From Nocardia nova SH22a (lineage in GTDB: Bacteria; Actinomycetota; Actinomycetes; Mycobacteriales; Mycobacteriaceae), in NCBI RefSeq assembly GCF_000523235.1, contig NZ_CP006850.1:1178001-1242000 (forward strand): 64,000 nucleotides of DNA, given 5' to 3'. Below are positions 31,244 through 48,139 of this stretch, one piece after another. Under the pieces are notes generated by a model. It worked only from the letters and a program-made list of their open reading frames with translations, did not search any database and had not been told where the DNA came from. How positions within the stretch are numbered: the stretch's first letter is position 1; each line of letters opens with the position of its first letter. Made by a program: the position numbers and the translations under genes.

Positions 31244-32290
31244 ATGCGCGGAGCAGAACTCTCGTGCGGGCACGGAGAAGTACCCAATCTCCGGCTCAGA
31301 ATTCACAATCACGACACCGCACCGGCGGATCGGCTCGAGCATTGGAACGAGCTGACCAAACACACCCGCTACGGCGACAAGGGAATGCCCGAGGTGCGGG
31401 GGGAACGCACTTTCGAAGCCGATTACAGCGCCAGTTGGTTCGGCACCACCGGGGTGGTGGCCGGCGCGATGGACGGCGGAGTATTCGTCATGGACCGACG
31501 ACGCACCGGGCATCTCGATTCCGGCCGGGTTCAGCTGGCATTGACGGGTAGTGCGCCGCAGTACATCGATCTCGGTGACGAACAACGCGAAATACCACCG
31601 AACTCGCTTTTTCTGCAGTTTCACGATCGGCCGCGCAGCACCCTGCGCCGGGAACACGATCACATGCTGTTCGTCGATATCGATGTCACCAGGCTGACCA
31701 TCGATCCCGGTACGTTGCGCCGGGCGCATTTCGCCGCCCTGGCGGTGGATCGTCCGGTGGCCGAGATGTTCGCGCAGGCCGCGCTGGGTCTGTTGCAGTT
31801 ACCCCGCTGTGAACCGCATGCCGCCGACAGCTTCCTCGTCAGTCTGGTGGATCTGGTGGTGCGCAACGCTTTTCACGACGAATTACAGGTGTCCGAGACC
31901 ACTCCGGCGCGCCGGGCGCAGGCGCTGCGGGTCATGCGCGAGAACCTGTCCAATACCGATTTCAGCGCCGAGGATCTCGCGGCGGCGCTGAACATCTCCC
32001 GCCGCAGCCTGTTCCAGTTGTTCCGGACCGACGAGGCGCCGATGTCGGTACTGCGGCGGATGCGGATCGCCCGGGCGAAGGACATCCTGGGCGATCCGGA
32101 GCGGGATTCTCTGACCATGGACCAGATCGCCAGAATGTGCGGATTCAGCACCGCCCGCGGACTCGGTGTCGCGTTTCGCCGTGAACTCGGCCGCTCGCCG
32201 AGCGACTTCCGGCGTATCCGTGCCGCCGTACTCGACACGGAATACCGTGGTGAACCGGATACTCCGGTGGTCGAGGACTACGCGAGCTGA
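31244..32290 (+). CDS. AraC-family regulator
   Basis: 348 residues. A cupin-like AraC-binding N-terminal half ('FEADYSASWFGTTGVVAGAMDG', 'QREIPPNSLFLQFHDR') and a C-terminal double HTH ('NTDFSAEDLAAALNISRRSLFQLFRTDEAPMSVLRRMRIARAKDIL' and 'MDQIARMCGFSTARGLGVAFRRELGRSPSDFR'). ATG at 31244 after GGGAGGGG. It marks the left edge of the polyketide cluster, convergent with the DUF1772 gene with 13 bp of overlap. It may regulate the cluster or be unrelated; position alone does not settle this. Confidence 0.88.
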   Translation: MRGAELSCGHGEVPNLRLRIHNHDTAPADRLEHWNELTKHTRYGDKGMPEVRGERTFEADYSASWFGTTGVVAGAMDGGVFVMDRRRTGHLDSGRVQLALTGSAPQYIDLGDEQREIPPNSLFLQFHDRPRSTLRREHDHMLFVDIDVTRLTIDPGTLRRAHFAALAVDRPVAEMFAQAALGLLQLPRCEPHAADSFLVSLVDLVVRNAFHDELQVSETTPARRAQALRVMRENLSNTDFSAEDLAAALNISRRSLFQLFRTDEAPMSVLRRMRIARAKDILGDPERDSLTMDQIARMCGFSTARGLGVAFRRELGRSPSDFRRIRAAVLDTEYRGEPDTPVVEDYAS

Positions 32291-32736
32291 CTGAGTGGCA
32301 CCAGTGCCGTGCCCGCGAATCCCGCCAGCGCGACGGCGGTACGGATCGCATGATAGTGCCGCCACTTGTCCCGGTCCTGTGACCAGGTCGGTGGGTGCTG
32401 CGATCCGGTCCACCCGTCCGCCCGGATGTTCAACGGCACCAGGACGGTGAAGGTGAGTGCGATGGTGATCACCATCGAGGCGAGTGCGATGACACTGCCG
32501 ACCACGGCCGACGGCGATCGGCCCAGATCGAGTACCACCATCATCACCGTCGAGGTCAGGCCGACGACGAAAACGCCCGGCATCAGCCGTCCGTAATCAC
32601 GATTGATCGCCTGCCAGTACTCCACGTAGGCGTGCGAACTCAGTTGCGCCACACTGCGATTGGCGGCGATCCCCACCGACAATCCGGCGAACAGGCCGGA
32701 TGTCAGCAGCGACAGCGCGATCGAGGTAACGTACAT
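32278..32736 (-). CDS. DUF1772 membrane protein, anthrone-oxygenase family
   Basis: 152 residues with four transmembrane segments: 'VTSIALSLLTSGLFAGLSVGIAA', 'LMPGVFVVGLTSTVMMVVLDL', 'VVGSVIALASMVITIALTFTVLVPLNI' and a C-terminal 'AIRTAVALAGFAGTALVPL'. The 'GWTGSQHPPTWSQDRDKWRHYHAIRT' loop (W...D..RW..YH..R) is the DUF1772 hallmark. The family includes fungal anthrone oxygenases such as HypC that oxidise anthrones to anthraquinones. ATG at 32736 with GAAGGGG upstream. Last of the three minus-strand genes MFS / membrane protein / DUF1772. In a type II PKS cluster this makes post-PKS oxidation its likely role; direct activity is not proven. Confidence 0.8.
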   Translation of the reverse strand: MYVTSIALSLLTSGLFAGLSVGIAANRSVAQLSSHAYVEYWQAINRDYGRLMPGVFVVGLTSTVMMVVLDLGRSPSAVVGSVIALASMVITIALTFTVLVPLNIRADGWTGSQHPPTWSQDRDKWRHYHAIRTAVALAGFAGTALVPLSQLA

Positions 32737-32770
32737 GGACCACCCCTTCCACCGGCCCGCGAAATCCGAT

Positions 32771-33202
32771 TCAGTCTCGGATCGCGCGCCGCGCATTCGA
32801 GACACACACTGCGGCAAAGGCATACAGTATCGCGCCCACACCCGCCGAGATACCCATGCTCGGCAGACCGTGGGACAGGCCGATCACCGTGTCGCCGAGC
32901 TGAACTATCGCCGACAGGACCAGCACGATCGTCGGATCGACGCGGTCGCGCCGGATGATCACATAGATCGCGGCCAGGCCGAGCGGGATGTTGCGCGCGG
33001 CGATCAGGGCGCCGAAGAACTGCACGCCGGTGGTGACCGCGTCGTCGGGCGGCAGCATATTCGACTGCGCGAACAGCCCGATGAACCCGAAGGCCACCAC
33101 GACGATGCTGAACACACCGGCCAGGGTCAGAGCCACCCGGATCTTCATGGGCGTCGACCGCGATGTGGTGTCGGAGGACCGGGTGCCGGAAATGGAAACC
33201 AT
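32771..33202 (-). CDS. Small four-helix membrane protein (DUF4267-like)
   Basis: 143 residues with four hydrophobic helices ('VALTLAGVFSIVVVAFGFIGLFAQ', 'FFGALIAARNIPLGLAAIYVIIRRD', 'TIVLVLSAIVQLGDTVIGLSHG', 'GISAGVGAILYAFAAVCVSNA'). The pattern 'ARNIPLGLAAIYVI...QLGDTVIGLSHG' resembles DUF4267-type proteins; assignment is tentative. ATG at 33202, 35 bp downstream of the exporter gene's stop. Probably works with the neighbouring exporter or DUF1772 protein; function unknown. Confidence 0.65.
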   Translation of the reverse strand: MVSISGTRSSDTTSRSTPMKIRVALTLAGVFSIVVVAFGFIGLFAQSNMLPPDDAVTTGVQFFGALIAARNIPLGLAAIYVIIRRDRVDPTIVLVLSAIVQLGDTVIGLSHGLPSMGISAGVGAILYAFAAVCVSNARRAIRD

Positions 33203-33237: not shown

Positions 33238-34788
33238 TCAGGCCGTGGTCGGCAGTTCGGATCCGGCCTGATCGGAGGCTGTCCTGGGCGCACTCTCGGG
33301 TGCGGTGCCGGGGGTGCGCCGGATCAGCACGACACACACCACCGCGCCGATCAGCCCGGCGATGCCGGCGGTGTGCAGGGCGAAGTTCAATCCGGAGGCG
33401 AAGGCGGTGTGCACGGCGTCGGCGACCGCGTCGTGTTGTGCGCCGGGCGCGTGCGCCACGATCTGCCCGCCGCCACCGGAGGCGATGGTCCGCGCCGTCG
33501 CGCCGGAGTCCCCGCCGATTCCGCGTTCGCTCAACACATGTGCCGCACGATTCTGGAATACGGTGCCCAGCAACGCGATTCCGAACACCAGGCCCAGTTG
33601 CCGCGCGGTGTTCACGGCGCCTGCCGCCATACCGCCGCGGGCGACCGGCACCGCCGACATCGCGCTCGACACCAGGATCGGGGTGGCCAGTCCGACGCCG
33701 CATCCGGCCACGACCAGACCCACCTGCAATCGCACCCAGCTGGAGTCGGCGGTCAGAATGCCCTGTGCCGCGGCGCCCGCCGCGATCAACAACAGGCCGA
33801 GGCCGATGATCCAACGCGGATTCGAATCGTGCAGGTTCCGGCCGATCGCGCCGCTGACCACGAATCCGGCCAGTGCCAGGGCGACGGCGCCGGCCAGCCC
33901 GGCCGAGATCGGGCTCATGCCACGGTCGTCCTGCAGCCACAGCGCGGTGTAGAACAGGTAGCCGAAGGCGGCGAAGTTCAGCAGTGCGGAGCCGAGCAGA
34001 ATTCCCGCGAATTCCCGGTTGCGGAGCAGGCGCAGATCCAGAATCGGCTGTGGCACAACGCTTTCAGCGACCACGAAGCCGATCAGCGCGATGGCCGCGA
34101 CGGCGAAGGATCCGAGTACCCGGGTGTCGGACCACCCGCGTGGACCGGCCTCGATGAGCCCATAGGTGACCGCGGCCGCGGCCACGGTGAAGGTGAGAAT
34201 GCCCGCGATATCGAGCCGGCGCTCCCGGTCGATCCGCTCCGGGCCGAAGGTGCGCAGCGACAGCGCGATGGCGAGCACGGCGAGCGGGACATTGACGAAG
34301 AACACCCAGCGCCACGACAACCATTCGGTGAGCACACCGCCCAGGACCGGGCCGATGGCGCCTGCCGCACCCGCCGTCGCACCCCAGACGCCGAAGGCGA
34401 TACCGCGATCCTTACCGCTGGTGTACGCCTTGTTGAGCAGCGCGATGCTGGTGGCGAGCATGGCGGCGCCGCCGACGCCCTGCACGGCGCGCGCGGCGAC
34501 CAGTTCGGGCAGATTCGTGGCGAGACCGGCGACCAGCGAGGCGATCGCGAAAACGCCCAGGCCGTAGAGGTAGATCTTGACATGGCCCAGCCGGTCGGCC
34601 AGGCCGCCCGCACCGAGCAGTACCGCACCCAGTGCCAGGGCGTAGGCATTGACGACCCATTGCAGGTCGGCCAGGTCGGCGTCGAGATCGGCCGACATCT
34701 CGGGGATCGCGACGTTGACGATGGTCACGTCGATCAACAACATCAAGGTGCCCAGCGCCACGGCGCCGAGCGGAACCCATTTTCGCAT
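33238..34788 (-). CDS. MFS exporter, DHA2 family (polyketide export candidate)
   Basis: 516 residues, 14 transmembrane segments. TM1 'VPLGAVALGTLMLLIDVTIVNVAIPEMSADL' is the DHA2 signature; 'AVQGVGGAAMLATSIALLN' and 'GVWGATAGAAGAIGPVLGGVLTEWLSWRWVFFVNVPLAV' are motif C and the TM5 antiporter region. First gene of a minus-strand trio, divergent from the Lrp-type regulator at 34902, so likely controlled by it. Best candidate for efflux of and resistance to the type II polyketide. Confidence 0.87.
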   Translation of the reverse strand: MRKWVPLGAVALGTLMLLIDVTIVNVAIPEMSADLDADLADLQWVVNAYALALGAVLLGAGGLADRLGHVKIYLYGLGVFAIASLVAGLATNLPELVAARAVQGVGGAAMLATSIALLNKAYTSGKDRGIAFGVWGATAGAAGAIGPVLGGVLTEWLSWRWVFFVNVPLAVLAIALSLRTFGPERIDRERRLDIAGILTFTVAAAAVTYGLIEAGPRGWSDTRVLGSFAVAAIALIGFVVAESVVPQPILDLRLLRNREFAGILLGSALLNFAAFGYLFYTALWLQDDRGMSPISAGLAGAVALALAGFVVSGAIGRNLHDSNPRWIIGLGLLLIAAGAAAQGILTADSSWVRLQVGLVVAGCGVGLATPILVSSAMSAVPVARGGMAAGAVNTARQLGLVFGIALLGTVFQNRAAHVLSERGIGGDSGATARTIASGGGGQIVAHAPGAQHDAVADAVHTAFASGLNFALHTAGIAGLIGAVVCVVLIRRTPGTAPESAPRTASDQAGSELPTTA

Positions 34789-34901
34789 GTGTCAGTTCCT
34801 TCGAAGGGGGATGGGGTCCGTGACGGCTCTGTCTGTGAGTTCATGCTCGCAACGGTTTTGATGCATTGACAGATTCCGATCAGAAATTGAGGATTAATTC
34901 C

Positions 34902-35975
34902 ATGTCTCAGTCAGAATCGATGAATTCTGTCAGTGTGGACGATCTGGATATGAAGATCATCCAATGCCTATCGATTTACCATCGTGCGCCGGCCGCGCTG
35001 TTGTCCCAGGTCCTGGGCGCTTCGGAGCAGACCGTCGGCAGGCGCTACCGGCGTCTGGTCGCCGAGGGGGTGCTGCGGATCAGCGGACTGGCCGCCGGGG
35101 AGGATTCGGCGCACAGTTCCTGGACCGTGCGGCTGCGGTGCAATGCGCAGTCGGCGGACCAGATCTGCGCCACGCTGGCCCGCCGTGCCGATGTGTCGTG
35201 GGTATCGATTGCCGCGGGTGGTTCGGAGATCATCTGCAATATCGACTGCCGCACCATGCTCGACCGCGAATCGCTGTTGCTGAACCGGCTGCCGAAAGCC
35301 CGTGCGGTGGACCGGGTCTACGCCCACGAATGGTTGCACGGCTTCACCAAGACGAAGGGCGCGGATTGGCAGGCCTACGGAAATTACCTCACCGACGAGC
35401 AGCTTCGTGAGTTGAGCGCCGACTTGCCCTCCCGGCCGCAGCGCCCCGCGACAGCCGAGATCCTGCCCGAGGATCTTCCGATGCTGAATCTGCTGGCACG
35501 CGACGGGCGGACCAGTGTGGCCCGGCTGGCGCAGGCCGCTCGGATATCGCACGGACGGGCGTCGCGGCGGCTGAATGCCCTGACCGAGAACGGGGCCGTG
35601 GTCTTCGACATCGATCTGGCCTACGAACTGCTGGGATTTCGATCGCTGGCCTATCTCTGGCTGACCGTCCATCCCGAATACCTCGCTGCCGGTGGGCAAC
35701 TCCTGGCCGATCAGCCGGAGGTGCCGTTCGCGGTGGCGGTGACCGGCACCGCGAATCTGCTGGCCTCGGTCGTATGCCGCACGGCCGAGGATCTGTATGC
35801 CTTCATCACGACGAAAGTGCGTCTGCTGGAAGGACTGACGATGGTCGAGACCTCGCCGGTGATCCGGACGGTGAAGCAGGCCGGGGCCCTGCGCAACGGT
35901 CTGCGTCTGGCCGTGGCCCCGGCCGCTGCGAGCGAGTCCGCCTCGGGCTATCCGAAACCTATCGGTGCTATTTGA
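34902..35975 (+). CDS. Lrp/AsnC-type regulator with two HTH domains
   Basis: 357 residues from ATG 34902, with GAGGA eight bases upstream. Two Lrp-type units are visible: the first HTH '[46 protein letters not shown]' (~10-60) with a ligand-type domain, and a second HTH '[46 protein letters not shown]' (~195-240) with a further RAM-like domain. Duplicated Lrp proteins are common in actinomycete clusters. It is divergent from the exporter operon and its stop overlaps the acyl-CoA carboxylase gene by 8 bp. Likely local regulator of the exporter and/or PKS genes. Confidence 0.85.
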
Positions 35976-37737
35976 TTTCGGTGAGCACGGTGCCCTGGGT
36001 GATGGCGGCTCCGGCTTCGACCGCGAGGCCGGTGACGACACCGGCTTTGTGGGCGTTGACGGGGTTCTCCATCTTCATGGCCTCGAGGACGGCGATCAGG
36101 TCACCGGCCTCGACGGACTGGCCTTCCTCGACCGCGACCTTGACCACGGTGCCCTGCATGGGCGCGGTCACCGCGTCGCCGGAAGCGGCCGAGTTGCCCG
36201 CGCCGCCACGTTTACGCGGCCTCGGCTTCTGGTGTGCCGCACCGCCGTTGTTGCCGACGGTGATCCGACCGGGCATCGATACTTCGACTCTGCGGCCGCC
36301 GACTTCGACGACGACGGTCTGGCGCGGGGCCTCGTCCTCGTCCTCGATCGGTTGTCCGCCGGTGTAGGGCTCGATCGTGTTGTCCCACTCGTTCTCGATC
36401 CACTTGGTGTAGACGTCGAATGTTTCGGAACCGTCAGCGTTTACGTGACCGATGAACGCGGGGTTGGTGACGATATGACGATCGAACGGGATCACCGTCG
36501 CCAAACCCTCGATGTGGTACTCGGCCAGCGCACGCGCCGCCCGCTCCAAAGCCTGGGTCCGGTCCTCACCGGTCACGATCAACTTGGCCAGCATCGAGTC
36601 GAACTGACCACCGATCACACTGCCCTCGACCACACCCGAATCCACGCGCACACCCGGACCGGTCGGCTCCTTGTACACCGTCACCGGACCGGGAGCGGGC
36701 AGGAAGTTACGGCCCGCGTCCTCACCATTGATCCGGAACTCGATCGAATGCCCACGCGGAGTCGGATCCTCGGTGATCGTGAGTTCCTCACCATTGGCGA
36801 TACGGAACTGCCAGCGCACCAGATCCAGGCCCGAGGTCTCCTCGGTGACGGGATGCTCGACCTGCAGGCGGGTGTTGACCTCGAGGAACGACACGGTCTC
36901 GCCCTGCACCAGATACTCCACCGTGCCGGCACCGTAGTAACCGGCTTCCTTGCAGATCCGCTTCGCGGACTCGTGGATCTCGGCGCGGACCTCGTCGGAC
37001 AGGAACGGGGCCGGGGCCTCCTCGACCAGCTTCTGGAAACGCCGCTGTAGCGAGCAGTCACGGGTTCCGGCCACGATCACGTTCCCGTGCTGGTCGGCCA
37101 GGACCTGGGCCTCGACGTGGCGGGCCTTGTCCAGATACTGCTCCACGAAGCACTCGCCACGCCCGAACGCGGCGGTGGCCTCACGGGTCGCGGACTCGAA
37201 CAGTTCCGGGATCTCCTCGATGGTGTGGGCGACCTTCATACCGCGGCCACCACCACCGAACGCGGCCTTGATGGCCACCGGCACCCCGTACTGCTTCGCG
37301 AACTCCACCACCTCGGTCGCGTCCTTCACCGGGTCCTTCGTGCCCGCAGCCATCGGCGCGGACGCACGCTCGGCGATATGGCGGGCGGTGACCTTGTCCC
37401 CGAGGTCGCGGATGGACTGCGGCGACGGACCGATCCAAATCAACCCGGCATCCAGCACGGCCTGCGCGAAATCGGCGTTCTCCGAGAGGAATCCGTAGCC
37501 GGGGTGGATGGCGTCGGCGCCCGATTTGCGGGCCGCGTCGAGAATCTTGTCGAACACCAGGTACGACTCCGCCGACGTCTGACCGCCCAACGCGAACGCC
37601 TCGTCCGCCAACCCGACGAACGGCGCTCCCGCATCCGGTTCCGCGTACACGGCAACACTGGCGATACCGGCATCCTTCGCGGCCCGGATCACACGCACCG
37701 CGATCTCGCCGCGGTTGGCTATCAACACTTTTCGCAT
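35968..37737 (-). CDS. Acyl-CoA carboxylase alpha subunit (biotin carboxylase + BCCP)
   Basis: 589 residues. Biotin carboxylase domain (1-450) starts '[24 protein letters not shown]' and includes ATP-grasp '[14 protein letters not shown]' and '[15 protein letters not shown]'. The C-terminal biotinyl domain carries '[10 protein letters not shown]' with biotinylated Lys555. It carboxylates its own biotin for transfer by the beta subunit at 37971. ATG at 37737 follows AGGAG. As the last gene of the 13-gene PKS run, with AccE and AccD beside it, it would supply malonyl-CoA (or a substituted extender) for polyketide synthesis; it could also be the main housekeeping AccA3 homologue. Confidence 0.9.
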
Positions 37738-37752: not shown

Positions 37753-37950
37753 TCAGGCGGCGCGCAACCAGCTGTTGGCAGACAGGAAGACCGTGTGCCG
37801 TTCGGGACGCAGCCAGGTCGCGGGCGCCGGGCGCAGCACCCGGTGCTCGGATTCGGCTCCGGCGTACAGCAGCAGCGCCACGATCAGAGCCGCCAGCTCC
37901 GTGTCGTCCGGACATCCACGTTCGATGCGAATTCCGATGGCGTCGTTCAT
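37753..37950 (-). CDS. Acyl-CoA carboxylase epsilon subunit
   Basis: 65 residues, 'IRIERGCPDDTELAALIVALLLYAGA...' is the start of the AccE consensus ('RG.P...ELAAL.A.L'), and 'WLRPERHTVFLSANSWLRAA' ends with the usual W-containing tail. This small subunit stabilises alpha-beta acyl-CoA carboxylase complexes in actinobacteria. ATG 37950 with GAGG upstream is preferred; a GTG at 37974 overlapping the AccD stop (GTGA) is the alternative. Confidence 0.85.
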   Translation of the reverse strand: MNDAIGIRIERGCPDDTELAALIVALLLYAGAESEHRVLRPAPATWLRPERHTVFLSANSWLRAA

Positions 37951-37970
37951 GATTGCCTCGTCTCTGGGTG

Positions 37971-39512
37971 TCACAGCGGTGGATTGCCGTGCTTGCGCAG
38001 CGGCAGATCGGCATGTTTGGTACGCAGCATGGCCAGGCCGCGGATCAGCGCCGACCGGGTGTCGGCGGGATCGATCACCTCATCGACGAGGCCCAGTTCG
38101 GCCGCGAAGTACGGGTGGACGAGCTCGTCCCGGTATTGCCGGATGCGCTCCTCGCGCAGAGTGCCCGGGTCCTCGGCGGTCTTCAGTTCCTTGCGGCACA
38201 CGACCTCCACGGCCCCGTCGGCGCCCATGACCGCGATCTCGTTGGTCGGCCACGCCAGGGCGAGATCGGCGCCGATCGAACGGGAGTCCATCACGATGTA
38301 GGCGCCGCCGAAGGCCTTCCGCAGCACCAGCGAGATACGTGGCACGGTCGCATTGCAGTACGCGGACAGCAATTTCGCGCCGTGCCGGATGACGCCGCCG
38401 TGCTCCTGCCCGACGCCCGGGAGGAATCCGGGAACGTCGACGAGGGTCACCAGAGCGATATTGAAGCAATCGCAGGTCTGTACGAAGCGGGCCGCCTTCT
38501 CCGACGCGGCGATGTCGAGGGCGCCGGCCAGCGCATTCGGCTGGCTGGCAACGATTCCCACGACCTGGCCGTCGAGTCTGGCGAACGCGCACACCACATT
38601 GCTCGCCCACTGGTCCTGCACCTCGAACAGGATGCCGTCGTCGACGATCTCCTCGATCACCGCATGCATGTCGTAGGGCCGGTTTCCGTCCACCGGAACC
38701 AGGTCGTAGAGCGCGTCGTTGCGGCGGTCGGCGGGATCGGTGCAGGGCGCCGCGGGTGGTTGTTCGCGGCTGTTCGACGGCAGCATCGACAACAGCAGTC
38801 GCACATCGTGCAGACAGGTCTGCTCGTCGTCGTAGGCGAAGTGCGCCAGTCCCGACCCTCGGGTGTGGACCTCGGTGCCACCGAGTTCTTCCATGGTCAC
38901 CTTCTCGCCGGTGACGGCGGCGATCACATCCGGACCGGTGAGGAACATCTGCGCGATACCGCGCACCATGAAGACGAAATCGGTCAGTGCCGGACTGTAG
39001 GCGGCCCCACCGGCGCACGGCCCGAGCATCACGCTGAGCTGTGGAATCACCCCGGACGCGCGGGCATTGCGGCGGAATATCCCACCGAATCCCGCCAATG
39101 CGGTCACGCCCTCCTGAATGCGGGCGCCGGCGCTGTCGTTGAGCGCCACCAGCGGCGCGCCGGTGGCCATCGCCAGATCCATGACCTTGTGGATCTTGGC
39201 CGCGTGCGCCTCGCCCAGGGCACCGCCCAGAATGCGGAAGTCCTGGGCGTAGACGAAGACGGTGCGGCCGTAGACGGTGCCCCACCCGGTCACCACACCG
39301 TCGGTGTGCGGGCGTCGCTGTGCCATCGCGAACCCGGCACCGCGGCCCCGCCGCAGGCTTTCCACCTCCTGGAACGATCCCTTGTCGAGTAGCATCTCGA
39401 TGCGCTCGCGGGCGGTCGACTTGCCCTGATCGTGTTGGCGCGCGGTGGCCTCGGCGGAGGAATTCACCACCGACTGCCGCAGTTCCGTCAGTTCGGCGAC
39501 GGCTCGATACAT
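37971..39512 (-). CDS. Acyl-CoA carboxylase beta subunit (carboxyltransferase)
   Basis: 513 residues. 'KSTARERIEMLLDKGSFQEVESL', 'VYAQDFRILGGALGEAHAAKIHKVMDLAMATGAPLVALNDSAGARIQEGV', and 'LVDVPGFLPGVGQEHGGVIRHGAKLLSAY' with 'KAFGGAYIVM' are the N- and C-terminal crotonase-fold halves of an AccD5-like carboxyltransferase. Transfers CO2 from biotin to acetyl- or propionyl-CoA. ATG at 39512; its GAGGAG lies inside the end of the upstream dienelactone-hydrolase gene, two bases away, so translation is coupled. Substrate preference cannot be read reliably. Confidence 0.9.
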   Translation of the reverse strand: MYRAVAELTELRQSVVNSSAEATARQHDQGKSTARERIEMLLDKGSFQEVESLRRGRGAGFAMAQRRPHTDGVVTGWGTVYGRTVFVYAQDFRILGGALGEAHAAKIHKVMDLAMATGAPLVALNDSAGARIQEGVTALAGFGGIFRRNARASGVIPQLSVMLGPCAGGAAYSPALTDFVFMVRGIAQMFLTGPDVIAAVTGEKVTMEELGGTEVHTRGSGLAHFAYDDEQTCLHDVRLLLSMLPSNSREQPPAAPCTDPADRRNDALYDLVPVDGNRPYDMHAVIEEIVDDGILFEVQDQWASNVVCAFARLDGQVVGIVASQPNALAGALDIAASEKAARFVQTCDCFNIALVTLVDVPGFLPGVGQEHGGVIRHGAKLLSAYCNATVPRISLVLRKAFGGAYIVMDSRSIGADLALAWPTNEIAVMGADGAVEVVCRKELKTAEDPGTLREERIRQYRDELVHPYFAAELGLVDEVIDPADTRSALIRGLAMLRTKHADLPLRKHGNPPL

Positions 39513-39514
39513 GA

Positions 39515-40240: not shown

Positions 40241-41799
40241 TGCGCTTCTCCTCGTGCGATGTCGGACAGAGCGGCGCGGTCGACCTTCCCGTTGGGGAGG
40301 CGTGGCAGCCGCTCCACTCGTTGGATCGAACTCAATTGTGCTGCTTCGGCGTAGGTCTCGCGCAGTTCCTCGGGATCACCGGCGGACACCACGAATCCGG
40401 CCAGCCGGGTTCGATCGCCGTCGCGGAAACCCACCACCTCGCATTCGTCGACCCCCGGATGCGATTCCAGAGCACGACGTATCGCCGAGGGCGAGACGAC
40501 CTCGTCACCGTGGCGGACCAGATCGCGAATGCGGTCGATCACGCTGAGCAGGCCGTCGGAGTCCAGTTGTCCGTAATCGCCGGTGGGGAACCAGGTTCCG
40601 GGCGTGCTCTCGATGCGTGCGCCGTTGTAGTAGCCGAGCATGATGGCGGGGCCGGAGGCCCAGATCTGGCCGGGTGCGCCGTTCGGAACCGGATCCGGCC
40701 GGTCGTCGTCCAGTCCGGCGATGCGGATCGCGACACCGCCGACGGGAGTCCCCACCGAACCGACTCGCTCGGATCCGGCACGTTCGGTACTGATCAGCGA
40801 GGTCGTCTCGGTCAGCCCGTAACCCTGCCAGCAGGGCAGCCCCAGCACCGAACGTATGCGCCGATTGGCACGGGCCGACAGAGCGGTGCTACCGGAGCCG
40901 ATCATCCGCAGATGCCGAATGCCGGTGGTATCGAAGGCCGGATCGGCCGCGAGTTGTTCCAGCCGCACCGGCAGCGAATACAGATGGGTGGCGCGCAACT
41001 GATCGGCCACCTCCACCGACCGGCGCACATGGGAGTGTCCCGCCAGGATCTGGCGCAGGCCGACCCGGACCGAGGCGTTCATGTGCATCGGGTAGTAGAT
41101 GGGGCGACTGTGCGCGAGACCGTCACCGTCGGCCAGGGCGTGCGCTCCGGCCAGTTGTTCCGCATTGGCCCGAATATTGGTGTGGCTGTAGCAGACCGCC
41201 TTGGCGGGGCCGGTGGAGCCGCTGGTGAACATGAGTGCCGCGGCATCCTCCGGTAGTCCGGGATCCCGATCGGCGCGCTCCGTGGTGCGGACCAGCCAAC
41301 CGGCGTCGATCCGCACGACCTCCTGCAGCAGCGCCGTGATCCGCTCCTCGCGCAGCGCCTTGGCCAGAAACTGTTCCAGCCCGCGTTCGCTGACCAGTAC
41401 CGCGGCCGGGCGCGACAGTTCCAGGACATGGGCCAGAGCCTGCGCCGGCAGGAGCGGATTGATCGGCGCCACCACGTTGCCGCTGCGGATTCCGCCGTAG
41501 TAGCAGGCCGGGAAGGAGGGGTCGAGATCGGCGACGACGCCGACCACCCGGCCGGTCCCGACCGTGCCCGCCAGTGTCCGGGCCACCGAGTCGGCCAGAT
41601 CATCCAGGGTTCGGAAGGTCAGCACCGACGATTCGGTCTGCACCGCGGTGCGCGGTCCGTGCGTGCGGGCCGCCTCGGTGAGCAGCCCGTCGACGGTTCC
41701 GGAGGTGTCGGCCGGGGCGGGCGCGCCGCACAGCCAGGAGACGGCAGGGTCCGGCCGTAGCGCCGCCGGCGTGACGGTGATCGTGCTATCGCTGTTCAT
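40237..41799 (-). CDS. Acyl-CoA ligase (ANL superfamily)
   Basis: 520 residues. The adenylation motif 'AALMFTSGSTGPAKAVCYSHTNI' is the P-loop-like ANL signature; 'GYGLTETTSLIS', 'TGDYGQLDSDGLLSVIDRIRDLV' and 'PNGKVDRAAL' (with the catalytic Lys) complete the core. It activates an acid as acyl-AMP and thioester. In this operon it may load a starter unit onto CoA or the ACP, or activate a tailoring acid. It overlaps the DLH gene (ATGA) and follows the MBL gene by 14 bp. Confidence 0.88.
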   Translation of the reverse strand: MNSDSTITVTPAALRPDPAVSWLCGAPAPADTSGTVDGLLTEAARTHGPRTAVQTESSVLTFRTLDDLADSVARTLAGTVGTGRVVGVVADLDPSFPACYYGGIRSGNVVAPINPLLPAQALAHVLELSRPAAVLVSERGLEQFLAKALREERITALLQEVVRIDAGWLVRTTERADRDPGLPEDAAALMFTSGSTGPAKAVCYSHTNIRANAEQLAGAHALADGDGLAHSRPIYYPMHMNASVRVGLRQILAGHSHVRRSVEVADQLRATHLYSLPVRLEQLAADPAFDTTGIRHLRMIGSGSTALSARANRRIRSVLGLPCWQGYGLTETTSLISTERAGSERVGSVGTPVGGVAIRIAGLDDDRPDPVPNGAPGQIWASGPAIMLGYYNGARIESTPGTWFPTGDYGQLDSDGLLSVIDRIRDLVRHGDEVVSPSAIRRALESHPGVDECEVVGFRDGDRTRLAGFVVSAGDPEELRETYAEAAQLSSIQRVERLPRLPNGKVDRAALSDIARGEAQ

Positions 41800-41813: not shown

Positions 41814-42755
41814 TCAGGCGGCGCAGTGAGGCAGCACGCCGCCGTTGAAAGTGACCATCTCGCCGAAGACCGACACCACATCGAGTTCCTCGCCCGGGGC
41901 GGCGCCGCCGAGTTCGGCGTAGGCGCGGTGCAGATTGCCCACCAGCCGCTCCGGATCGCTCCAGCCGGCGATCTCGGCCGGGGCCTCGGCATGCCGCGCG
42001 ACATCGAGCGGGGCCTGACCGGCGCGCACACCCACCACCGAGATGGCGGCGATCCAGTCCAGATAGCGCGCCGTCACATCGAGCAGTGCGGGCCCGGCGA
42101 TCGGGCCGTGTCCCGGGACGATCACGCGCGGGCGCAGTGCCCGCATCGCCTCGACCGCGCGCTGCATCCCGTCCAGCGAGCCCATCAGGAAGAACGGCGT
42201 GCATTCCGACATCAGCAGGTCGCCGCTGAACAGCACTCGCTCCTCGGGCAGCCAGACCGCCACATCGCCACGGGTGTGCGCGGGGCCGAGGTGGATCAGT
42301 TCCACCGTCCGGCCGTTGTGCAGGGTCAGCCGATCGTCGAAGGTGGTGTCCGGCAACCGCAATGCCACCGGACCCCAGTCGATGTCCGGCCACAGCCCGG
42401 TCAGTGCCGTGCCGTTGGCGGCCATGTCCGCGCGGGTCAGCCGATGCGCCAGGATCCGGGTGCGGTCGGGGAACAGGCGGTTGCCGAAGACGTGATCGCC
42501 GTGGAAGTGGGTGTTCACCAGGTCGGTTACCGGCGCGATGTCCAGATCCGCGACGGCGGCGAGCTGAGCCAGCGTGCGGGCCTCGGTGGCACAGGTGTCG
42601 ATGACCACGGTGGTGTCGGGCCCGGCGATCACCCCGCAGTTGTTGACACACCACCCGGCGTGCTCCTGGAGATAGGCGAACACGCCGGGGGCGAGTTCGA
42701 ACATCGCCGGAGCCGCGGGCAGTGCGGTGGGCGCACCGGCCGGAAGCACGGTCAT
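41814..42755 (-). CDS. Metallo-beta-lactamase-fold hydrolase, polyketide cyclase/thioesterase candidate
   Basis: 313 residues. Zn-binding motif 'NTHFHGDH' (His83, His85, Asp87, His88), 'LGPAHTRGDVAVWLPEERVLFSGDLL' and 'VPGHGPI'. The fold is that of ActIV-type second-ring cyclase/thioesterases in type II polyketide pathways, and the gene overlaps the aromatase/cyclase gene (ATGA with 42752). The role of releasing or cyclising the chain is inferred from this context; the fold alone is broad. Confidence 0.85.
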   Translation of the reverse strand: MTVLPAGAPTALPAAPAMFELAPGVFAYLQEHAGWCVNNCGVIAGPDTTVVIDTCATEARTLAQLAAVADLDIAPVTDLVNTHFHGDHVFGNRLFPDRTRILAHRLTRADMAANGTALTGLWPDIDWGPVALRLPDTTFDDRLTLHNGRTVELIHLGPAHTRGDVAVWLPEERVLFSGDLLMSECTPFFLMGSLDGMQRAVEAMRALRPRVIVPGHGPIAGPALLDVTARYLDWIAAISVVGVRAGQAPLDVARHAEAPAEIAGWSDPERLVGNLHRAYAELGGAAPGEELDVVSVFGEMVTFNGGVLPHCAA

Positions 42756-43660
42756 CGCGCCCCGCTTCCGAGTCGCTGCCGTGCGATTCGCATCGTGGAC
42801 ATACTGTTGTCGCTCAGTGCGTTTCGCGCCTTGTCGAGGTTGGCTTGCTGCAGTTCCGCGGTCGCGTGCTCGGGACGCAGCCGGATGGTGTGCGAGGAGG
42901 TCAGGACGGTGTCGGCGCCGGTGGCATCGATGGTCCAGCTGCCCAGGTGCAGATCCAGCAGCGGCGGCAGAGTCAGCTGCTTGTATTCGATCCTGCTGTG
43001 CCCGTCGGTGATTCGAATCGACATCGTGTCGTGCACCCCCACACTGGAGCGGGTCGTCATGGTGAGCGCGTGGATGCCCTCCTCGAACTCCCGGATGTCG
43101 ATCGCCTGCACATGCGGTAGTTCATCGGTCCACCGCTGTGCGTCCCAGATGAATTCGTGCACCGCCTTGGGGTCGGCGGCGATACGGATCGAATCGGAGA
43201 AGGTCCGTACCTCCGCGGCGCCGGACAGTCGCTCCGCCAGGGTCTTCAGTCCCGCGAGTTCCGTCCGGCTGTTCTCGTCGGTCACCCGCTCGATCCACTG
43301 CAGCGTGTGCGGGTCGTCGTCGGCAGCCGAGAAGCTGTGCTCCAGTACGAGAGTCGTGCGTTCGGCCGAGACCGGCCGGACGGTCCACACGCCGGTCATG
43401 GCGGCGATCGGTGCGGCGGGCGCGGTCTGACGGAACACGATCCGCCCGGCCGCATCGTCGAGCTCCCGCACGGAGGTCCAGGATTTGACGTCGTCGCCGG
43501 CCCGCGCCCAGATCCGCAACATCTCCGAATCCGTTGAGCGGTGCAGATATTCGACACGGAGGGTGGGCGCGAGCAGCTCCGGCCAGTATTCGGCGCGGGC
43601 GAGCAGATCGTAGACGGCCGAGGAGCCGGCCTCGATATCGATGGAATGTATGGTGTCCAT
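42752..43660 (-). CDS. Didomain aromatase/cyclase (SRPBCC)
   Basis: 302 residues composed of two START/Bet v1-like halves (about 1-148 and 155-302): 'HSIDIEAGSSAVYDLLARAEYWPELLAPTLRVEYLHRS' begins the first and 'TFSDSIRIAADPKAVHEFIWDAQRWTDELPHVQAIDIREF' the second. This is the didomain ARO/CYC architecture of type II PKS, which cyclises and aromatises the first ring, usually after C9 ketoreduction. It follows the ketoreductase gene by 30 bp. Confidence 0.9.
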   Translation of the reverse strand: MDTIHSIDIEAGSSAVYDLLARAEYWPELLAPTLRVEYLHRSTDSEMLRIWARAGDDVKSWTSVRELDDAAGRIVFRQTAPAAPIAAMTGVWTVRPVSAERTTLVLEHSFSAADDDPHTLQWIERVTDENSRTELAGLKTLAERLSGAAEVRTFSDSIRIAADPKAVHEFIWDAQRWTDELPHVQAIDIREFEEGIHALTMTTRSSVGVHDTMSIRITDGHSRIEYKQLTLPPLLDLHLGSWTIDATGADTVLTSSHTIRLRPEHATAELQQANLDKARNALSDNSMSTMRIARQRLGSGAR

Positions 43661-43690: not shown

Positions 43691-44476
43691 TCAGTAGTTG
43701 CCCAGGCCGCCGCAGACATTGATCGCCTGCGCGGTGATGGCGGCAGCCGCCGGGGTGGTCAGGTATTCGACCAGGCCCGCCACCTCATCGGGGGTGGTGT
43801 AGCGGCCCAGCGGGATCTTGGCCTCGAATCGGGTGAGCACGTCCGACTCGTCGATATCCCAGATCTTGGAATAGTTGGACCGAACATGTTGTGCCATGGG
43901 CGTTTCCACGTAGCCCGGGCAGACCGCGTTCGCCGTGATACCGGTGGCGGCCAGCTCGAGTCCGAGTGCCTTGGTGAAGCCGACCACGCCGTGTTTCGAC
44001 GCGCTGTACGGGGCGCCCAGCACGACCCCCTGTTTACCGCCGGTCGAGGCGATATTGATGATCCGCCCGGTGGACCGGGTGGTCATCAGTCCGGTGGTCA
44101 GCGCGTATTTCGACATCAGGAAGACGCTGCGCAGATTCGTGGCGATGACGTTGTCCCACAGTTCGCTGGACAGCCCGCTGGTCACGCCGCCACCGGGAAT
44201 TCCGGCATTGTTGACCACCGTGTCGACCGCGCCGAATCGCGCCACACCCGCGGCGACGAAGGACTCGACATCGGCCTCGTCGCGGACGTCGCAGGTGCGG
44301 CCGTCGGCGTCGATACCCAGGGTGCGCAGATCCTCGAGGGTGGTCTGCAACCGGTCGGAGTTGCGGGCGCAGAGGAAGATCCGGAAGCCCGCCGATCCCA
44401 GGCGGGTCGCGGTGGCCAGGCCGATTCCGCTGGTACCACCGGAGATCAGGGCCACCCGGCCGTCGTCAGGCGACAT
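43691..44476 (-). CDS. Polyketide C9-type ketoreductase (ActIII-like SDR)
   Basis: 261 residues. 'ALISGGTSGIGLATA' (NADPH binding), 'NNAGIPGGGVTSGL' with the PGG triad at 94-96 seen in ActIII-type type II polyketide ketoreductases, catalytic Ser144, Tyr157 and Lys161 ('YSASK'). Reduces one ketone of the nascent poly-beta-ketone before first-ring cyclisation. ATG overlaps the end of the ACP gene by 11 bp. Presence of a KR plus a didomain ARO/CYC predicts a reduced aromatic product. Confidence 0.9.
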   Translation of the reverse strand: MSPDDGRVALISGGTSGIGLATATRLGSAGFRIFLCARNSDRLQTTLEDLRTLGIDADGRTCDVRDEADVESFVAAGVARFGAVDTVVNNAGIPGGGVTSGLSSELWDNVIATNLRSVFLMSKYALTTGLMTTRSTGRIINIASTGGKQGVVLGAPYSASKHGVVGFTKALGLELAATGITANAVCPGYVETPMAQHVRSNYSKIWDIDESDVLTRFEAKIPLGRYTTPDEVAGLVEYLTTPAAAAITAQAINVCGGLGNY

Positions 44477-44738
44477 CGCGCAGCTCCTCGTCGATCGCGG
44501 ACACCAGCTGTGCGGGTGTCAGGGCCTGTTCGAGCACGTCGTCGTCGAGTGCGATGCCGTGCTCGCGCTTGAGCCGGTTGAGCACCTCCAGCAACGCGAT
44601 GGAGTCGAAACCCAGGTCCTCGAAGAGGGTTTCGTCTCCCGCCGCGTCCAGGGTCGCCGCGTCGATGGCGTCGTCGTCACCGGCGACCTGGCGCAGAACG
44701 GTGGCGAGGAGCTGTTTGCTCGATACTTGAACGGTCAT
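44466..44738 (-). CDS. Acyl carrier protein of the type II PKS
   Basis: 90 residues. The phosphopantetheine attachment site is Ser46 in 'LFEDLGFDSIALLEVLNRL', with the acidic helix II typical of ACPs. Tethers the growing chain. It lies between the chain-length factor and ketoreductase genes, the usual minimal-PKS order. Confidence 0.93.
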   Translation of the reverse strand: MTVQVSSKQLLATVLRQVAGDDDAIDAATLDAAGDETLFEDLGFDSIALLEVLNRLKREHGIALDDDVLEQALTPAQLVSAIDEELRDVA

Positions 44739-44742: not shown

Positions 44743-45984
44743 TCACTTCTCTCCGGCCGGGATCGTCACCGCGACGTCGCTGCCCGGCCTGCGCAGCAGA
44801 GTCGCCGAATTGAAACCGCCGCGCCCTCGCGAAAGGACAAGTGCGACAGTGATATCGGTCTTCTCGGGATGTTCGGGAATGTGCAGATCGCGGGCGCGGC
44901 CCGACCGCGGATAGACCCGGGTGGGCGGCACCGTGCCGTGCGCGATCGCCAGGCACGCGGTGGCGATGTCCAGGGCGCCGGTACCGCAACCCGCCCGGCC
45001 GAATCCGGCCTTGGGAATCGTCACCGGAACCGATCCGATGCCGAACACCGCGGTGATCGCGTGGACCTCCTGCTCGTCCATGTCCGCCGTGCCGAATCCG
45101 TCCGCGAAGATCACATCGACCTCGGCGGGATCGGTGCCGGCGTCGGCGAGAGCGCCCCGGATCGCGCGCCGCAATCCCTCCGCCGGCGTACCTCGGCCGT
45201 CGAAAGTCGAAGCGAATCCGGCTATTTCGGCGTACTGGCGATGTGGTGCCGTACCGTCGGGCGTCCGGTCGGACTGCACCGTCATGAGGGCGCCGCCCTC
45301 GGCGGAGACGAATCCCGACGCCCCGGGGGAGAACGGTCGGTAGGCGGTGTCCGGATCGGCGCCGTGGGACATCAGACCGGCGCCGGTATAGGCCGACCAG
45401 CCCCATGGGCACAGGTTGGTGTCGACCGCACCCGCGAGCACGGTGCGGCTGCCGTCGCGCAACTGCCGCCGGGCATGTCCGATCGTCTCCATACCGCCGG
45501 CGTCGTCGGCGACCAAGGCCCGCCCCGGCCCCTTCAGCCCGTGCCGGATGGAGATCTGACCGGTGTTGACCGCGTAGAACCACGCGAACGACTGATACGC
45601 GCTGACATGATCGGGTCCCTGCGACCACAGCGCCTGCATTTCCCGCTGCGCGAATTCGAATCCGCCGCCGTTGTTTGCGGTCACGACCGATCCGGAGTTC
45701 CCGCCGAACTCCTCGGCGGACAGTTCCGCGTCGGCGAATGCGGCCTCGGCGGCGACCAGGGCGAATCGGGTCACCCGATCGGTTTGCGGGAGCAGGCGCG
45801 AGGGCAGATGGAGGGCCGCGTCGAAGCCGGGCACCTCACCGGCGACGCCGGTGGCGTATCGGGTGCCGTCGAAACGGGTGATCGGTGCGATGGCGTTGCG
45901 CGCCTCCAGCAGCGCCGACCAGAACACCTCGGTGCCCAGACCGTAGGGCGACAGCACGCCCAATCCGGTGATGATCGCCTTCAT
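44743..45984 (-). CDS. Chain-length factor (KS-beta)
   Basis: 413 residues of the thiolase-fold KS-beta family ('AIITGLGVLSPYGLGTEVFWSALLEARNAIAPITRFD'). The KS active-site Cys is missing: the equivalent segment reads 'ALVADDAGGMETI', with Asp161 where most chain-length factors have Gln. It pairs with KS-alpha and sets chain length. It overlaps the KS-alpha gene by ATGA-type coupling (45981-45984). The unusual residue makes prediction of length from known factors uncertain. Confidence 0.9.
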   Translation of the reverse strand: MKAIITGLGVLSPYGLGTEVFWSALLEARNAIAPITRFDGTRYATGVAGEVPGFDAALHLPSRLLPQTDRVTRFALVAAEAAFADAELSAEEFGGNSGSVVTANNGGGFEFAQREMQALWSQGPDHVSAYQSFAWFYAVNTGQISIRHGLKGPGRALVADDAGGMETIGHARRQLRDGSRTVLAGAVDTNLCPWGWSAYTGAGLMSHGADPDTAYRPFSPGASGFVSAEGGALMTVQSDRTPDGTAPHRQYAEIAGFASTFDGRGTPAEGLRRAIRGALADAGTDPAEVDVIFADGFGTADMDEQEVHAITAVFGIGSVPVTIPKAGFGRAGCGTGALDIATACLAIAHGTVPPTRVYPRSGRARDLHIPEHPEKTDITVALVLSRGRGGFNSATLLRRPGSDVAVTIPAGEK

Positions 45985-47249
45985 CGGGCACCTGCCCGGG
46001 AGATCACCATGGCGCTCTGGAAGCCGCCGAATCCGCTACCGACGGTGAGGATGTGGTCGAGTGCGGCCGGGCGGGCCTCACCCGGGACATAGTCCAGATC
46101 GCACTGCGGATCACGGGTGTTCCAGTTGGCTGTCGGTGGTACCAGGTCGTTGGTCAGCGTCAGCAGGCACGCGGCGATCTCGATCGAGCCGATCGCGCCC
46201 AGTGAGTGCCCGACCATCGACTTGATCGAACTGATCGGGGTCGCGTAGGCGTGGTCACCGAGCGCGCGTTTGAACGCGGCAGTCTCGTGCCGATCGTTCT
46301 GCTTGGTGCCCGAGCCGTGCGCGTTGATGTAGCCGATGTCGGTGGGATCGAGCCGGGCCCGGTGCAGTGCGGAGGTGATCGCGTCGGCCATCTCGACGCC
46401 GTCGGGCCGCAACCCGGTCATGTGATGGGCGTTGCAACGTCCGGCGAACCCGCTGATCTCCCCGTAGATCGGCACCCCGCGCCGGACCGCGGCCGACATC
46501 TCCTCGATCACGAACATGGCCGCGCCCTCACCGAGGACGAATCCGTTGCGGGACAGATCGAATGGGCGTGATGCCCGTTCGGGGTCCTCCAGTCGCGGCG
46601 TGGTCGCCTTGATCGCGTCGAAGCAGGCGATGGTGATCGGCGAGATCGGCGCGTCCGAGGCCCCGCACACGGCGCGCTCGACAGTGCCCTCCCGGACCAG
46701 GTCGACGGCGTGCGCGACGGCATCCAGACCGGAGGTGCAACCACTGGACACCACCGAGACCGGTCCCCGGGCGTCCACTTCCAAAGCCAGTTCGGCGGCA
46801 ATGGAACTCGGAATGTAATACGAGTAGTAGTTGGGTGAGGCGGCCCGTTCGTTCACCTCCCACAGCCGGCCGTGATCGCTCATCCGCACGTATTCGGTCT
46901 CCAGCCCCGGCGTGGATCCCACGGCGGTGCCGACCACCACCCCGGTATCGCACGGATCGGTGCGGTCGAATTCCAGACCGCTGTCGACCAGCGCTTCGCG
47001 CGCTGCGACGAGTGCGAATTGACCGACCCGGTCCATCCGCGCGGTCTCGGCCGGGCTCAGGCCGCACAACAGGGGGTCGAAGTCGACCTCGGCTGCGACC
47101 TGGGAGCGGAAGGGCTCCGGATCGACGAGTGTCATGCGGCGGGTCGCGGTGCGCCCGCCGGAGATGAGATTCCAGAAATTCTTGCGCCCTGGGGTGCCGG
47201 GCGCGACCACACCGATTCCGGTGACAACGACTCTGCGGTCGTCGGACAT
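45981..47249 (-). CDS. Ketosynthase alpha (KS-alpha)
   Basis: 422 residues with an intact active site: Cys171 in 'VVSSGCTSGLDAVAHAVD', His311 in 'NAHGSGTKQND', Lys343 and His348 in 'IKSMVGHSLGAIGS'. 'RRVVVTGIGVVAPGTPGRKNFW' is the type II KS N-terminus. Catalyses the chain-elongating Claisen condensations with KS-beta and ACP. ATG has AGGAG upstream. With KS-beta and ACP it forms the minimal PKS. Confidence 0.95.
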   Translation of the reverse strand: MSDDRRVVVTGIGVVAPGTPGRKNFWNLISGGRTATRRMTLVDPEPFRSQVAAEVDFDPLLCGLSPAETARMDRVGQFALVAAREALVDSGLEFDRTDPCDTGVVVGTAVGSTPGLETEYVRMSDHGRLWEVNERAASPNYYSYYIPSSIAAELALEVDARGPVSVVSSGCTSGLDAVAHAVDLVREGTVERAVCGASDAPISPITIACFDAIKATTPRLEDPERASRPFDLSRNGFVLGEGAAMFVIEEMSAAVRRGVPIYGEISGFAGRCNAHHMTGLRPDGVEMADAITSALHRARLDPTDIGYINAHGSGTKQNDRHETAAFKRALGDHAYATPISSIKSMVGHSLGAIGSIEIAACLLTLTNDLVPPTANWNTRDPQCDLDYVPGEARPAALDHILTVGSGFGGFQSAMVISRAGAR

Positions 47250-47312
47250 AACGACTCCTGAATGAAATGTGCCGGGTGTCGGGTCCGGCCGGAGAAAGTG
47301 AATTGGCGACGG

Positions 47313-47711
47313 TTATCCGAGAAGCTCCGCATTACGGGATTCGACCCATATCCCGCCGTCGTCGGCGGGGGTGAGCAGATCCTCGCAGGAAATGATTCCG
47401 GTCGGAATTGCCGGACGTCCGGGGCTGGACTCGACGGTGAGCACACAGGCCCGCACGCAGGTGCCGGACGGCATTGCCCGGATCGAATAATCGAACATGT
47501 AGTGGCGCTGGATCGCGCCGCGCAACGATCGTTCGGAACGCATCAGCAGGCTGTGGCCGACGATCTCGTCGCGGCCGCGTAGCGTCGGGCCACCGGCTAT
47601 CCGGAAGATCGAGCCGGGGCCGAAGGTCGCCGCGTAACCGTCGAAATCACCGTCGTCGAGCGCGTGCACCTGCGTGGCGTAGAACTGCCGGACGAGGTCG
47701 GTGGCGATCAT
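47313..47711 (-). CDS. SnoaL-like (NTF2-fold) protein
   Basis: 132 residues. 'VRQFYATQVHALDDGDFDGYAATFGPGSIFRIAG' and the strand pattern ending 'GIWVESRNAELLG' give the cone fold. Such proteins act as cyclases, oxygenases or hydroxylation partners in aromatic polyketide pathways. ATG overlaps the stop of the paralogous gene at 47708. First or second gene of the operon, upstream of KS-alpha by 63 bp. Confidence 0.75.
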   Translation of the reverse strand: MIATDLVRQFYATQVHALDDGDFDGYAATFGPGSIFRIAGGPTLRGRDEIVGHSLLMRSERSLRGAIQRHYMFDYSIRAMPSGTCVRACVLTVESSPGRPAIPTGIISCEDLLTPADDGGIWVESRNAELLG

Positions 47712-48139
47712 GAGCGCTGCCAGGGCTTGTCGTCGCGGGTCACCCGGCGGAACCGGATACGCCAGCCCTCGTCGCGGCGAATCAGCAGGTCTTCGCACAG
47801 CGTGCTGGCGTGAATCGCGGACTCCCCGCCGATCCGCGATTCGACGACCAGCACATAACTGGTTGCCCGCGTCATGGTCGGAGTGCGTGGCTGCAACCGC
47901 AGCATCGAAACCAGATGCCGGTGCCGGAGTCCGGATTCGGCGCGCGCGGCATGGCCGGCGGCGGCCGCGCGTTCGATCTGCCCGGCTCCGTGCAGCGGGG
48001 CGTCCAGACCGCTGGCGGCGAACGTGGCCTCGGGAAGGAAATCGGACGACCATCGGGCGACGTCGCCCTCGTCGAGGGCTGTCATGTGATCCGCGTAGAA
48101 CCTGTTCAGGAGATCGTATTCTGATGCAATTGTTTCCAT
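47708..48139 (-). CDS. SnoaL-like (NTF2-fold) protein
   Basis: 143 residues. 'LLNRFYADHMTALDEGDVARWSSDFLPEATFAASG' parallels the start of its neighbour, and it ends 'LIRRDEGWRIRFRRVTRDDKPWQ', a strand typical of NTF2-like and dioxygenase small-subunit proteins. Probably forms a hetero-oligomer with the protein from 47313. ATG at 48139 after GGGGTGG. First gene of the polyketide operon, so its 5' region should hold the main promoter. Confidence 0.75.
   Translation of the reverse strand: METIASEYDLLNRFYADHMTALDEGDVARWSSDFLPEATFAASGLDAPLHGAGQIERAAAAGHAARAESGLRHRHLVSMLRLQPRTPTMTRATSYVLVVESRIGGESAIHASTLCEDLLIRRDEGWRIRFRRVTRDDKPWQRS

Follow-up and report, generated by a model that had tools for sequence, protein, structure and literature searches.

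The window analysed here, a stretch of 64,000 nucleotides from Nocardia nova SH22a (contig NZ_CP006850.1, positions 1,178,001 to 1,242,000; the host genome comprises 8.35 Mb in one contig), carries between its positions 31244 and 48139 a cluster for an aromatic type II polyketide synthase (PKS). We read it, with confidence evenly balanced for and against, as an actinorhodin (act)-like cluster of a rare clade, in which a membrane protein of family DUF1772 would oxidise an anthrone acid and an acyl-CoA ligase would activate the carboxyl group. The gene content and integrity of this cluster, the conserved membership of its genes, its lack of an ABM monooxygenase and its key residues were read directly from the DNA and its translations.

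A sequence-only reading had described thirteen minus-strand genes running almost without gaps, and the open reading frames (ORFs), when re-derived, bear this out, with no internal stops from SnoaL1 to AccA (48139-35968) and intergenic distances of -11 to +63 bases along the run. The ATGA overlaps it mentioned were also found: five junctions share 4 bases, four of them with ATGA, i.e. SnoaL1/SnoaL2, the ketosynthase KSα and chain-length factor (CLF), the aromatase/cyclase (ARO/CYC) and metallo-β-lactamase-fold protein (MBL), and the ligase and dienelactone-hydrolase-family protein (DLH), and one, AccD/AccE, with GTGA. Pfam agreed with the families named for the operon genes, returning SnoaL_4 (twice), ketoacyl synthase (twice), PP-binding, adh_short, Polyketide_cyc2, Lactamase_B, AMP-binding, DLH, Carboxyl_trans, ACC_epsilon and a biotin carboxylase with biotinyl domain. 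The flanking DUF1772 protein, exporter and Lrp regulator likewise lie where they had been placed and match PF08592, MFS and Lrp/AsnC respectively. Every gene named is thus present, but the inventory had overlooked a convergent AraC gene on the plus strand that also belongs; the earlier reading also made no mention of the unusual CLF, of the lack of an ABM gene in the cluster or of the ligase occurring together with a SnoaL-like pair. The genes, with the basis of each assignment, are as follows.

31244..32290, +, AraC-family regulator (HTH_18; Pfam), convergent with the DUF1772 gene
32278..32736, -, DUF1772 (PF08592, Anthrone_oxy) protein of 152 aa, proposed anthrone oxygenase (Pfam on the longer ORF 32278-32841)
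33238..34788, -, MFS exporter (Pfam MFS_1; 'DHA2' is the earlier reader's naming only)
34866..35975, +, Lrp/AsnC-type regulator with two helix-turn-helix stretches (Pfam)
35968..37737, -, AccA, biotin carboxylase with biotinyl domain (Pfam on ORF 35968-37752)
37753..37974, -, AccE, acyl-CoA carboxylase epsilon subunit, 73 aa (Pfam ACC_epsilon)
37971..39512, -, AccD, carboxyltransferase with Ile at the PccB-422 position (GGAYIVM; Pfam on ORF 37971-40037, PDB alignments)
39515..40240, -, DLH (Pfam DLH)
40237..41799, -, AMP-binding acyl-CoA ligase, 520 aa (Pfam on ORF 40237-42654; PDB CoA-ligase matches)
41814..42755, -, MBL with HxHxDH motif, putative ActIV-like cyclase/hydrolase (Pfam Lactamase_B; translation)
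42752..43660, -, didomain ARO/CYC, 302 aa (Pfam Polyketide_cyc2 at residues 5-143; second domain predicted from length)
43691..44476, -, ketoreductase (KR) of the SDR family with YxxxK and PGG motifs (Pfam adh_short; motifs from translation)
44466..44738, -, acyl carrier protein (ACP) with GFDSI motif (Pfam PP-binding; translation)
44743..45984, -, CLF with Asp at the act Gln161 position and gate F/A/M/F (alignment)
45981..47249, -, KSα with active site SSGCTSG (Pfam; best PDB match actinorhodin KS, 1tqy_A)
47313..47711, -, SnoaL2, SnoaL_4 protein (Pfam on ORF 47313-48149; matched in three relatives)
47708..48139, -, SnoaL1, SnoaL_4 protein (Pfam on ORF 47708-48394; Foldseek)

The minimal PKS is of type II by its motifs and by Pfam, the CLF having ADDAGG and no active-site Cys beside the KSα and ACP motifs listed. 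At the level of families, the KR, the didomain ARO/CYC and the ActIV-like MBL make up an act-type set; in the act pathway, the anthraquinone DMAC arises from a reduced octaketide through ARO/CYC and ActIV (PMC340942, excerpts; 'excerpts' marks a source drawn on in part, here and below). Of the six full loci grouping with the act CLF, L055, L064, L076 and L115 have MBL homologues, and L047 and L113 have none.

The DUF1772 protein scored 43.5 bits against PF08592 (cut-off 27.3), residues P101, N103, W125 and R132 are invariant among the 15 rows aligned, and its structure model (mean predicted local-distance difference test, pLDDT, 87.9) has four long helices. The fungal protein HypC also belongs to DUF1772. 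It is an anthrone oxidase, with oxidation of an anthrone seen in vitro (PMC3202775, excerpts). Of the 80 type II loci, in the extent fetched, only L041 and L117 contained PF08592 relatives by our own profile, with confirmation by Pfam; the N. mexicana and N. wallacei genes lay past the 10 kb flank and were found in extended DNA. The claim that such a protein is uncommon here holds in these counts, but it has a precedent in PerU6, a DUF1772 protein listed as hypothetical beside the KSα of the persiamycin cluster (PMC7296137, excerpts); the literature searched, in the parts available, gave no function to any DUF1772 protein in a bacterial type II PKS. L117 (Streptomyces dysideae) has two PF08592 genes (7808-8449 and 13002-13463), several ABM-like matches and a TGMI CLF gate, an arrangement that recalls the persiamycin cluster.

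We scanned the loci for relatives of the ABM family (PF03992) and searched whole genomes with PF03992. SnoaB and AknX belong to this family. ActVA-ORF6 has also been tied to it (PMC4383371, excerpts). Of the 80 loci, 14 had ABM relatives (borderline in L107 and L059), and these included all eight loci with DNA in the KSα sister set of the clade (L017, L018, L019, L020, L022, L069, L071 and L112), which amount to seven distinct loci, as L019 and L112 have identical CLFs. These eight are among the nine rows outside the clade in a 15-row KSα set, the ninth (P0087, Streptomyces steffisburgensis) being a protein record only. All five ligase-bearing loci outside the clade (L045, L071, L077, L080 and L114, of which L071 is also in the sister set) have ABM as well. 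By contrast, no ABM match was found in the window, in its acyl-CoA ligase, in L039-L041 or in the extended DNA (E-value of 6.1 at best under relaxed settings), and the whole-genome search returned none on the cluster contigs of genomes G075, G145 and G152 and none inside the window. The clade therefore shows the opposite pattern to the other ligase loci, with an unfused ligase, no ABM and a DUF1772 gene, a distribution that fits one replacement event. Where ABM is present beside a ligase, one or two ABM domains are fused to the ligase C-terminus in L045 (16568-18769), L071 (16756-18561) and L114 (15385-17901), two form the next frame after the ligase in L077, and in L080 ABM is a separate gene; such layouts would allow a physical coupling of the ABM step to ligation.

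All 17 genes (13 operon genes, Lrp, exporter, DUF1772 and AraC) were matched in identical order in both N. mexicana and N. wallacei. In Saccharothrix sp. NRRL B-16348 the operon order is preserved for 12 genes, and DLH, the thirteenth, had no match in the region, nor had Lrp or the exporter. This conservation of gene order makes a chance arrangement untenable. Identities across the three relatives were 73-87% for AccA and 56-69% for AraC, and 83-84% for the exporter in the two Nocardia species, the only relatives in which the Lrp regulator was matched. In Saccharothrix, DUF1772 and AraC again form a convergent pair, but adjoin SnoaL1 at the opposite end of the cluster, so that the pairing is kept in all four clusters read. 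That it keeps its arrangement while relocated is good evidence that both genes belong to the pathway, and they are likely to be true cluster members; with only four PF08592 genes in the 10.9 Mb of the Saccharothrix genome, one of them would be unlikely to lie so close, within a few kb, by chance, as a rough estimate. N. thraciensis also encodes the CLF and the DUF1772 protein, although no linkage of the two was seen.

The cluster family is rare. A KSα of at least 91% identity was found in three of 150 Nocardia genomes, the host included (next best 67%), and, beyond the genus, the family was found in Saccharothrix. In the protein database, where only the approx. 8000 candidates sharing most words were scored, identity dropped from 79-80% (Actinosynnema and Actinophytocola) to 69% for KSα and from 64-65% to 53-54% for CLF. 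Among 397 genomes from the order, the host's own CLF alone passed an E-value of 1e-140. At an E-value threshold of 1e-90, 76 of the 150 Nocardia genomes had at least one KSα match and genome G018 had three, so type II PKSs as such are common in the genus.

The CLF sets the clade apart. Where the act CLF has Gln161, Asp was read in all five clade CLFs, compared with none of 115 others among the matches listed (82 Gln, 26 His, 5 Gly, 1 Glu and 1 Thr); in the locus set, Asp stood in 7/7 clade rows and 0/105 other rows, the clade rows being four genomes with three counted twice and the others including act and some duplicates. The usual CLF Gln is thus absent from the clade, which does not exclude type II membership, since 33 of the 115 other CLFs also lack it. 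The gate F/A/M/F was found in all clade rows and in no other, and differs from act F/T/F/F at positions 112 and 116; we take these positions to bear on chain length. Together, the Asp and the private gate point to a putative change in initiation or chain length. The CLF Gln has been linked to decarboxylative priming, and its replacement by Ala in a CLF-like protein from Lysobacter led to a complete loss of pigment (PMC3691225, excerpts).

Both the KSα and CLF trees were quick searches with support from the SH-like approximate likelihood ratio test (SH-aLRT) only. In the former, the clade lies inside the 15-row set (SH-aLRT 96; only 69 for a 12-row subset within it), outside the act-like loci, in a tree that does not include the act KS itself; in the latter, the clade branch (1.04) lies near the point where the act group, the FALF/MBL group and the remaining rows meet. 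P0087 we take to be the steffimycin KSα. A spore-pigment placement had been named by the sequence-only reading as an outcome that would refute it, and was not seen: KSα groups with the S. steffisburgensis KSα and ABM-bearing loci (96), in a set that leaves out the TGMI-gated L117, and the cluster has a KR, which answers the question in part, as the tree holds no verified WhiE row. Phylogeny does not fix the chain length.

The sequence-only reading had also considered a precursor supply within the cluster uncommon, a view that the counts do not support. Within approx. 10 kb of KSα, and with the clade included, relatives of AccD were found in at least 40, of AccA in at least 27 and of AccE in at least nine of the 80 loci, these counts being lower bounds because 26 loci are shorter than 21.2 kb. 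Carboxylase genes are likewise reported in the persiamycin (PMC7296137), rubiginone and grecocycline clusters, and JadJ is cited as the malonyl-CoA supplier of jadomycin (all excerpts). Since a carboxylase near KSα is this frequent, one inside the cluster is ordinary, and the DUF1772-for-ABM pattern and the unusual CLF are stronger grounds for calling the cluster unusual. AccD has Ile aligned to PccB D422 (PDB alignments, best 7w5u; chains with Ile and Val there align). Position 422 is Asp in wild-type PccB and bears on the choice of substrate. The Ile here points to acetyl-CoA, and supply of methylmalonyl-CoA was rejected on that basis.

From these gene families we infer a route in which the catalytic steps, the chain length and the product are all predictions from sequence. 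The linked acyl-CoA carboxylase would supply malonyl-CoA, from which KSα, CLF and ACP would assemble a poly-β-ketone, reduced by the KR probably at C9. The didomain ARO/CYC would then close and aromatise the first ring, and the ActIV-like metallo-enzyme would close further rings and release an anthrone carboxylic acid. This anthrone would be oxidised to the anthraquinone by DUF1772, in the role of the ABM oxygenase in the nearest relatives, after which the ligase may activate the free carboxyl group and the SnoaL-like pair assist the next step, possibly closure of a fourth ring. Export would fall to the MFS protein in Nocardia, and regulation to AraC, with Lrp in addition in Nocardia. The most likely product is a C9-reduced, DUF1772-oxidised and ligase-activated acid of the anthraquinone type, possibly with four rings, so the anthrone/anthraquinone class proposed earlier was reasonable.

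Several points weigh against DUF1772 as the anthrone oxygenase of this cluster. Most of the 80 loci have neither ABM nor DUF1772, the replacement of one by the other is a single event on the tree and not many, and ABM genes lie elsewhere in all four cluster-bearing genomes, from where they could act in trans. ABM proteins have been proposed to have a functional connection with cyclases (PMC4383371, excerpts), in which case their absence would not show DUF1772 to have taken over an oxidation; oxidation of anthrones can also be spontaneous, and deletion of hypC is leaky (PMC3202775, excerpts). PF08592 is broad and widely distributed, with three members in genome G000 alone and one in a cluster for a ribosomally synthesized and post-translationally modified peptide (PMC11002830, excerpts), and a structure search with the helical-bundle model returned no match to any solved oxygenase. 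Such breadth and the lack of a structural match, together with a gene that is convergent to a regulator and beside the exporter in Nocardia, would suit a membrane protein for resistance, transport or redox support. We consider this unlikely, given that the gene is kept in the Saccharothrix region, where exporter and Lrp have no match, and that fungal anthrone oxidases of the HypC kind have been characterised (PMC3202775, excerpts). Oxidation of an anthrone acid is the role that we prefer for DUF1772.

What follows that oxidation is read in two ways, because the fold of SnoaL1 points to an act-like product and the ligase/SnoaL pairing to a four-ring one, and we retain both as rivals, each possible but doubtful to the same degree. 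A four-ring aglycone would be a nona- or decaketide closed by ligase and SnoaL-like protein to a tetracenequinone or anthracyclinone, as in mithramycin, where MtmL and the SnoaL-like MtmX close the fourth ring (PMC7247220, excerpts). By families only, this combination in one type II cluster is present here. Seven loci out of the 80 passed the ligase threshold, the clade accounting for three, with L077, whose ligase is cut by the locus end, as an eighth; a SnoaL-type protein occurs in all of these, compared with 19 of the 80 overall. The grouping of KSα with P0087 and the residues at gate positions 112 and 116 also favour four rings, but the FAMF gate departs from both the FGLF and the FTFF pattern, the ligases of the clade are no more than distantly related to the others (219-300 bits, with relatives in L045, L071, L077, L080 and L114), and no methyltransferase, glycosyltransferase or further oxygenase was found by Pfam among the cluster genes. 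Moreover, the SnoaL1 model (mean pLDDT 93.6) is closest by Foldseek to Caci_6494 (one structure with S-DNPA bound), ActVI-ORFA and Aln2, at approx. 25-28% identity, and SnoaL itself is not among the best 50 fold matches listed. These folds and the ActIV-like MBL argue for an act-like octaketide, a DMAC-type anthraquinone acid or pyranonaphthoquinone with an ActVI-ORFA-like SnoaL pair; against it stand the gate, unlike act and all act-group rows, the KSα apart from the act-like loci, and the KR, besides which Pfam found no second reductase. The Asp seen in the clade alone, with the Lysobacter result, could instead mean non-acetate priming, with the ligase loading a carboxylic acid starter and not activating the product. 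This is quite improbable in our view, as His, Gly, Glu or Thr in other CLFs shows that Gln is not universally needed, and no third ketosynthase, acyltransferase or second ACP was found among the cluster genes by Pfam.

Among known systems, actinorhodin resembles the cluster in the best PDB match of KSα, in the KR, ARO/CYC and MBL and in the fold of SnoaL1, but differs at CLF position 161 and at the gate, and the present cluster has a ligase, DLH, DUF1772 and a linked carboxylase and no second reductase. Mithramycin shares the minimal PKS, aromatase, KR, an acyl-CoA ligase of approx. 515 aa and a SnoaL-like protein; here, however, there is one KR (two in mtm), an MBL-fold protein and DUF1772, with neither an MtmOII-type oxygenase nor sugar genes (PMC7247220, excerpts). 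The logic of nogalamycin and aclacinomycin is also similar, with C9 ketoreduction, first-ring aromatisation, later cyclisation, anthrone oxidation, carboxyl derivatisation and a SnoaL-type protein (PMC9764417). In our cluster, DUF1772 would stand in place of the ABM proteins SnoaB/AknX, a ligase replaces the methyl-ester step, and the SnoaL proteins are SnoaL_4. Persiamycin of Streptomonospora sp. PA3 is alike in PerU6, next to its KSα Per1, and in the carboxylase set perHIJ, but its cyclases are WhiE/tetracenomycin-like and PerU6 is hypothetical (PMC7296137, excerpts). L080, an uncharacterised locus of Streptomyces populi A249, shares the order KS-CLF-ACP-KR-ARO/CYC-AccD and MBL, ligase, SnoaL_4 and MFS genes, and differs in its separate ABM gene, in a FALF gate with Gln and in that no DUF1772 was found within the locus. 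Fungal emodin-family clusters likewise combine a metallo-β-lactamase-type enzyme with a HypC-kind anthrone oxidase, but have a multidomain non-reducing PKS and a separate decarboxylase, in contrast with discrete KSα, CLF and ACP (PMC9890505), and we regard the likeness as a functional parallel.

Four neighbouring genes were considered as members and rejected. The ion-channel gene (48253-48915) and the FAD-binding gene (FAD_binding_4; 48994-50250, plus strand) had no match in the compared N. mexicana, N. wallacei and Saccharothrix regions, whereas the MFS gene at 29692-31053 and the isocitrate dehydrogenase gene at 28141-29448 were matched in both Nocardia regions, but not in Saccharothrix, and were taken as chromosomal neighbours. 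Further on, a 357-aa protein (50225-51298, minus strand) had no Pfam match at 0.001 and no PDB match. By eye, its K-x-Y strands resemble those of ABBA-type prenyltransferases. The adjoining 717-aa protein (51295-53448, minus strand) is rich in Asp and Pro and also had no Pfam match at 0.001.

Taken more broadly, and more tentatively than the pathway itself, a bacterial type II PKS lineage may have exchanged its ABM oxygenase for a membrane protein unrelated to it, from the DUF1772 family found in fungal anthraquinone pathways, and coupled this with an MBL-type release enzyme. Bacteria and fungi would then have arrived independently at one two-enzyme route to an anthraquinone acid, and initiation or chain length at the CLF may also have changed. 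In the literature searched we recognised no paper on this clade, and its compound is probably undescribed. The Asp-for-Gln CLF offers natural variation at a position connected with chain initiation, and with DUF1772 retained in two actinomycete families and the ABM of the nearest loci missing, the cluster is a clean test case for a bacterial anthrone oxygenase.

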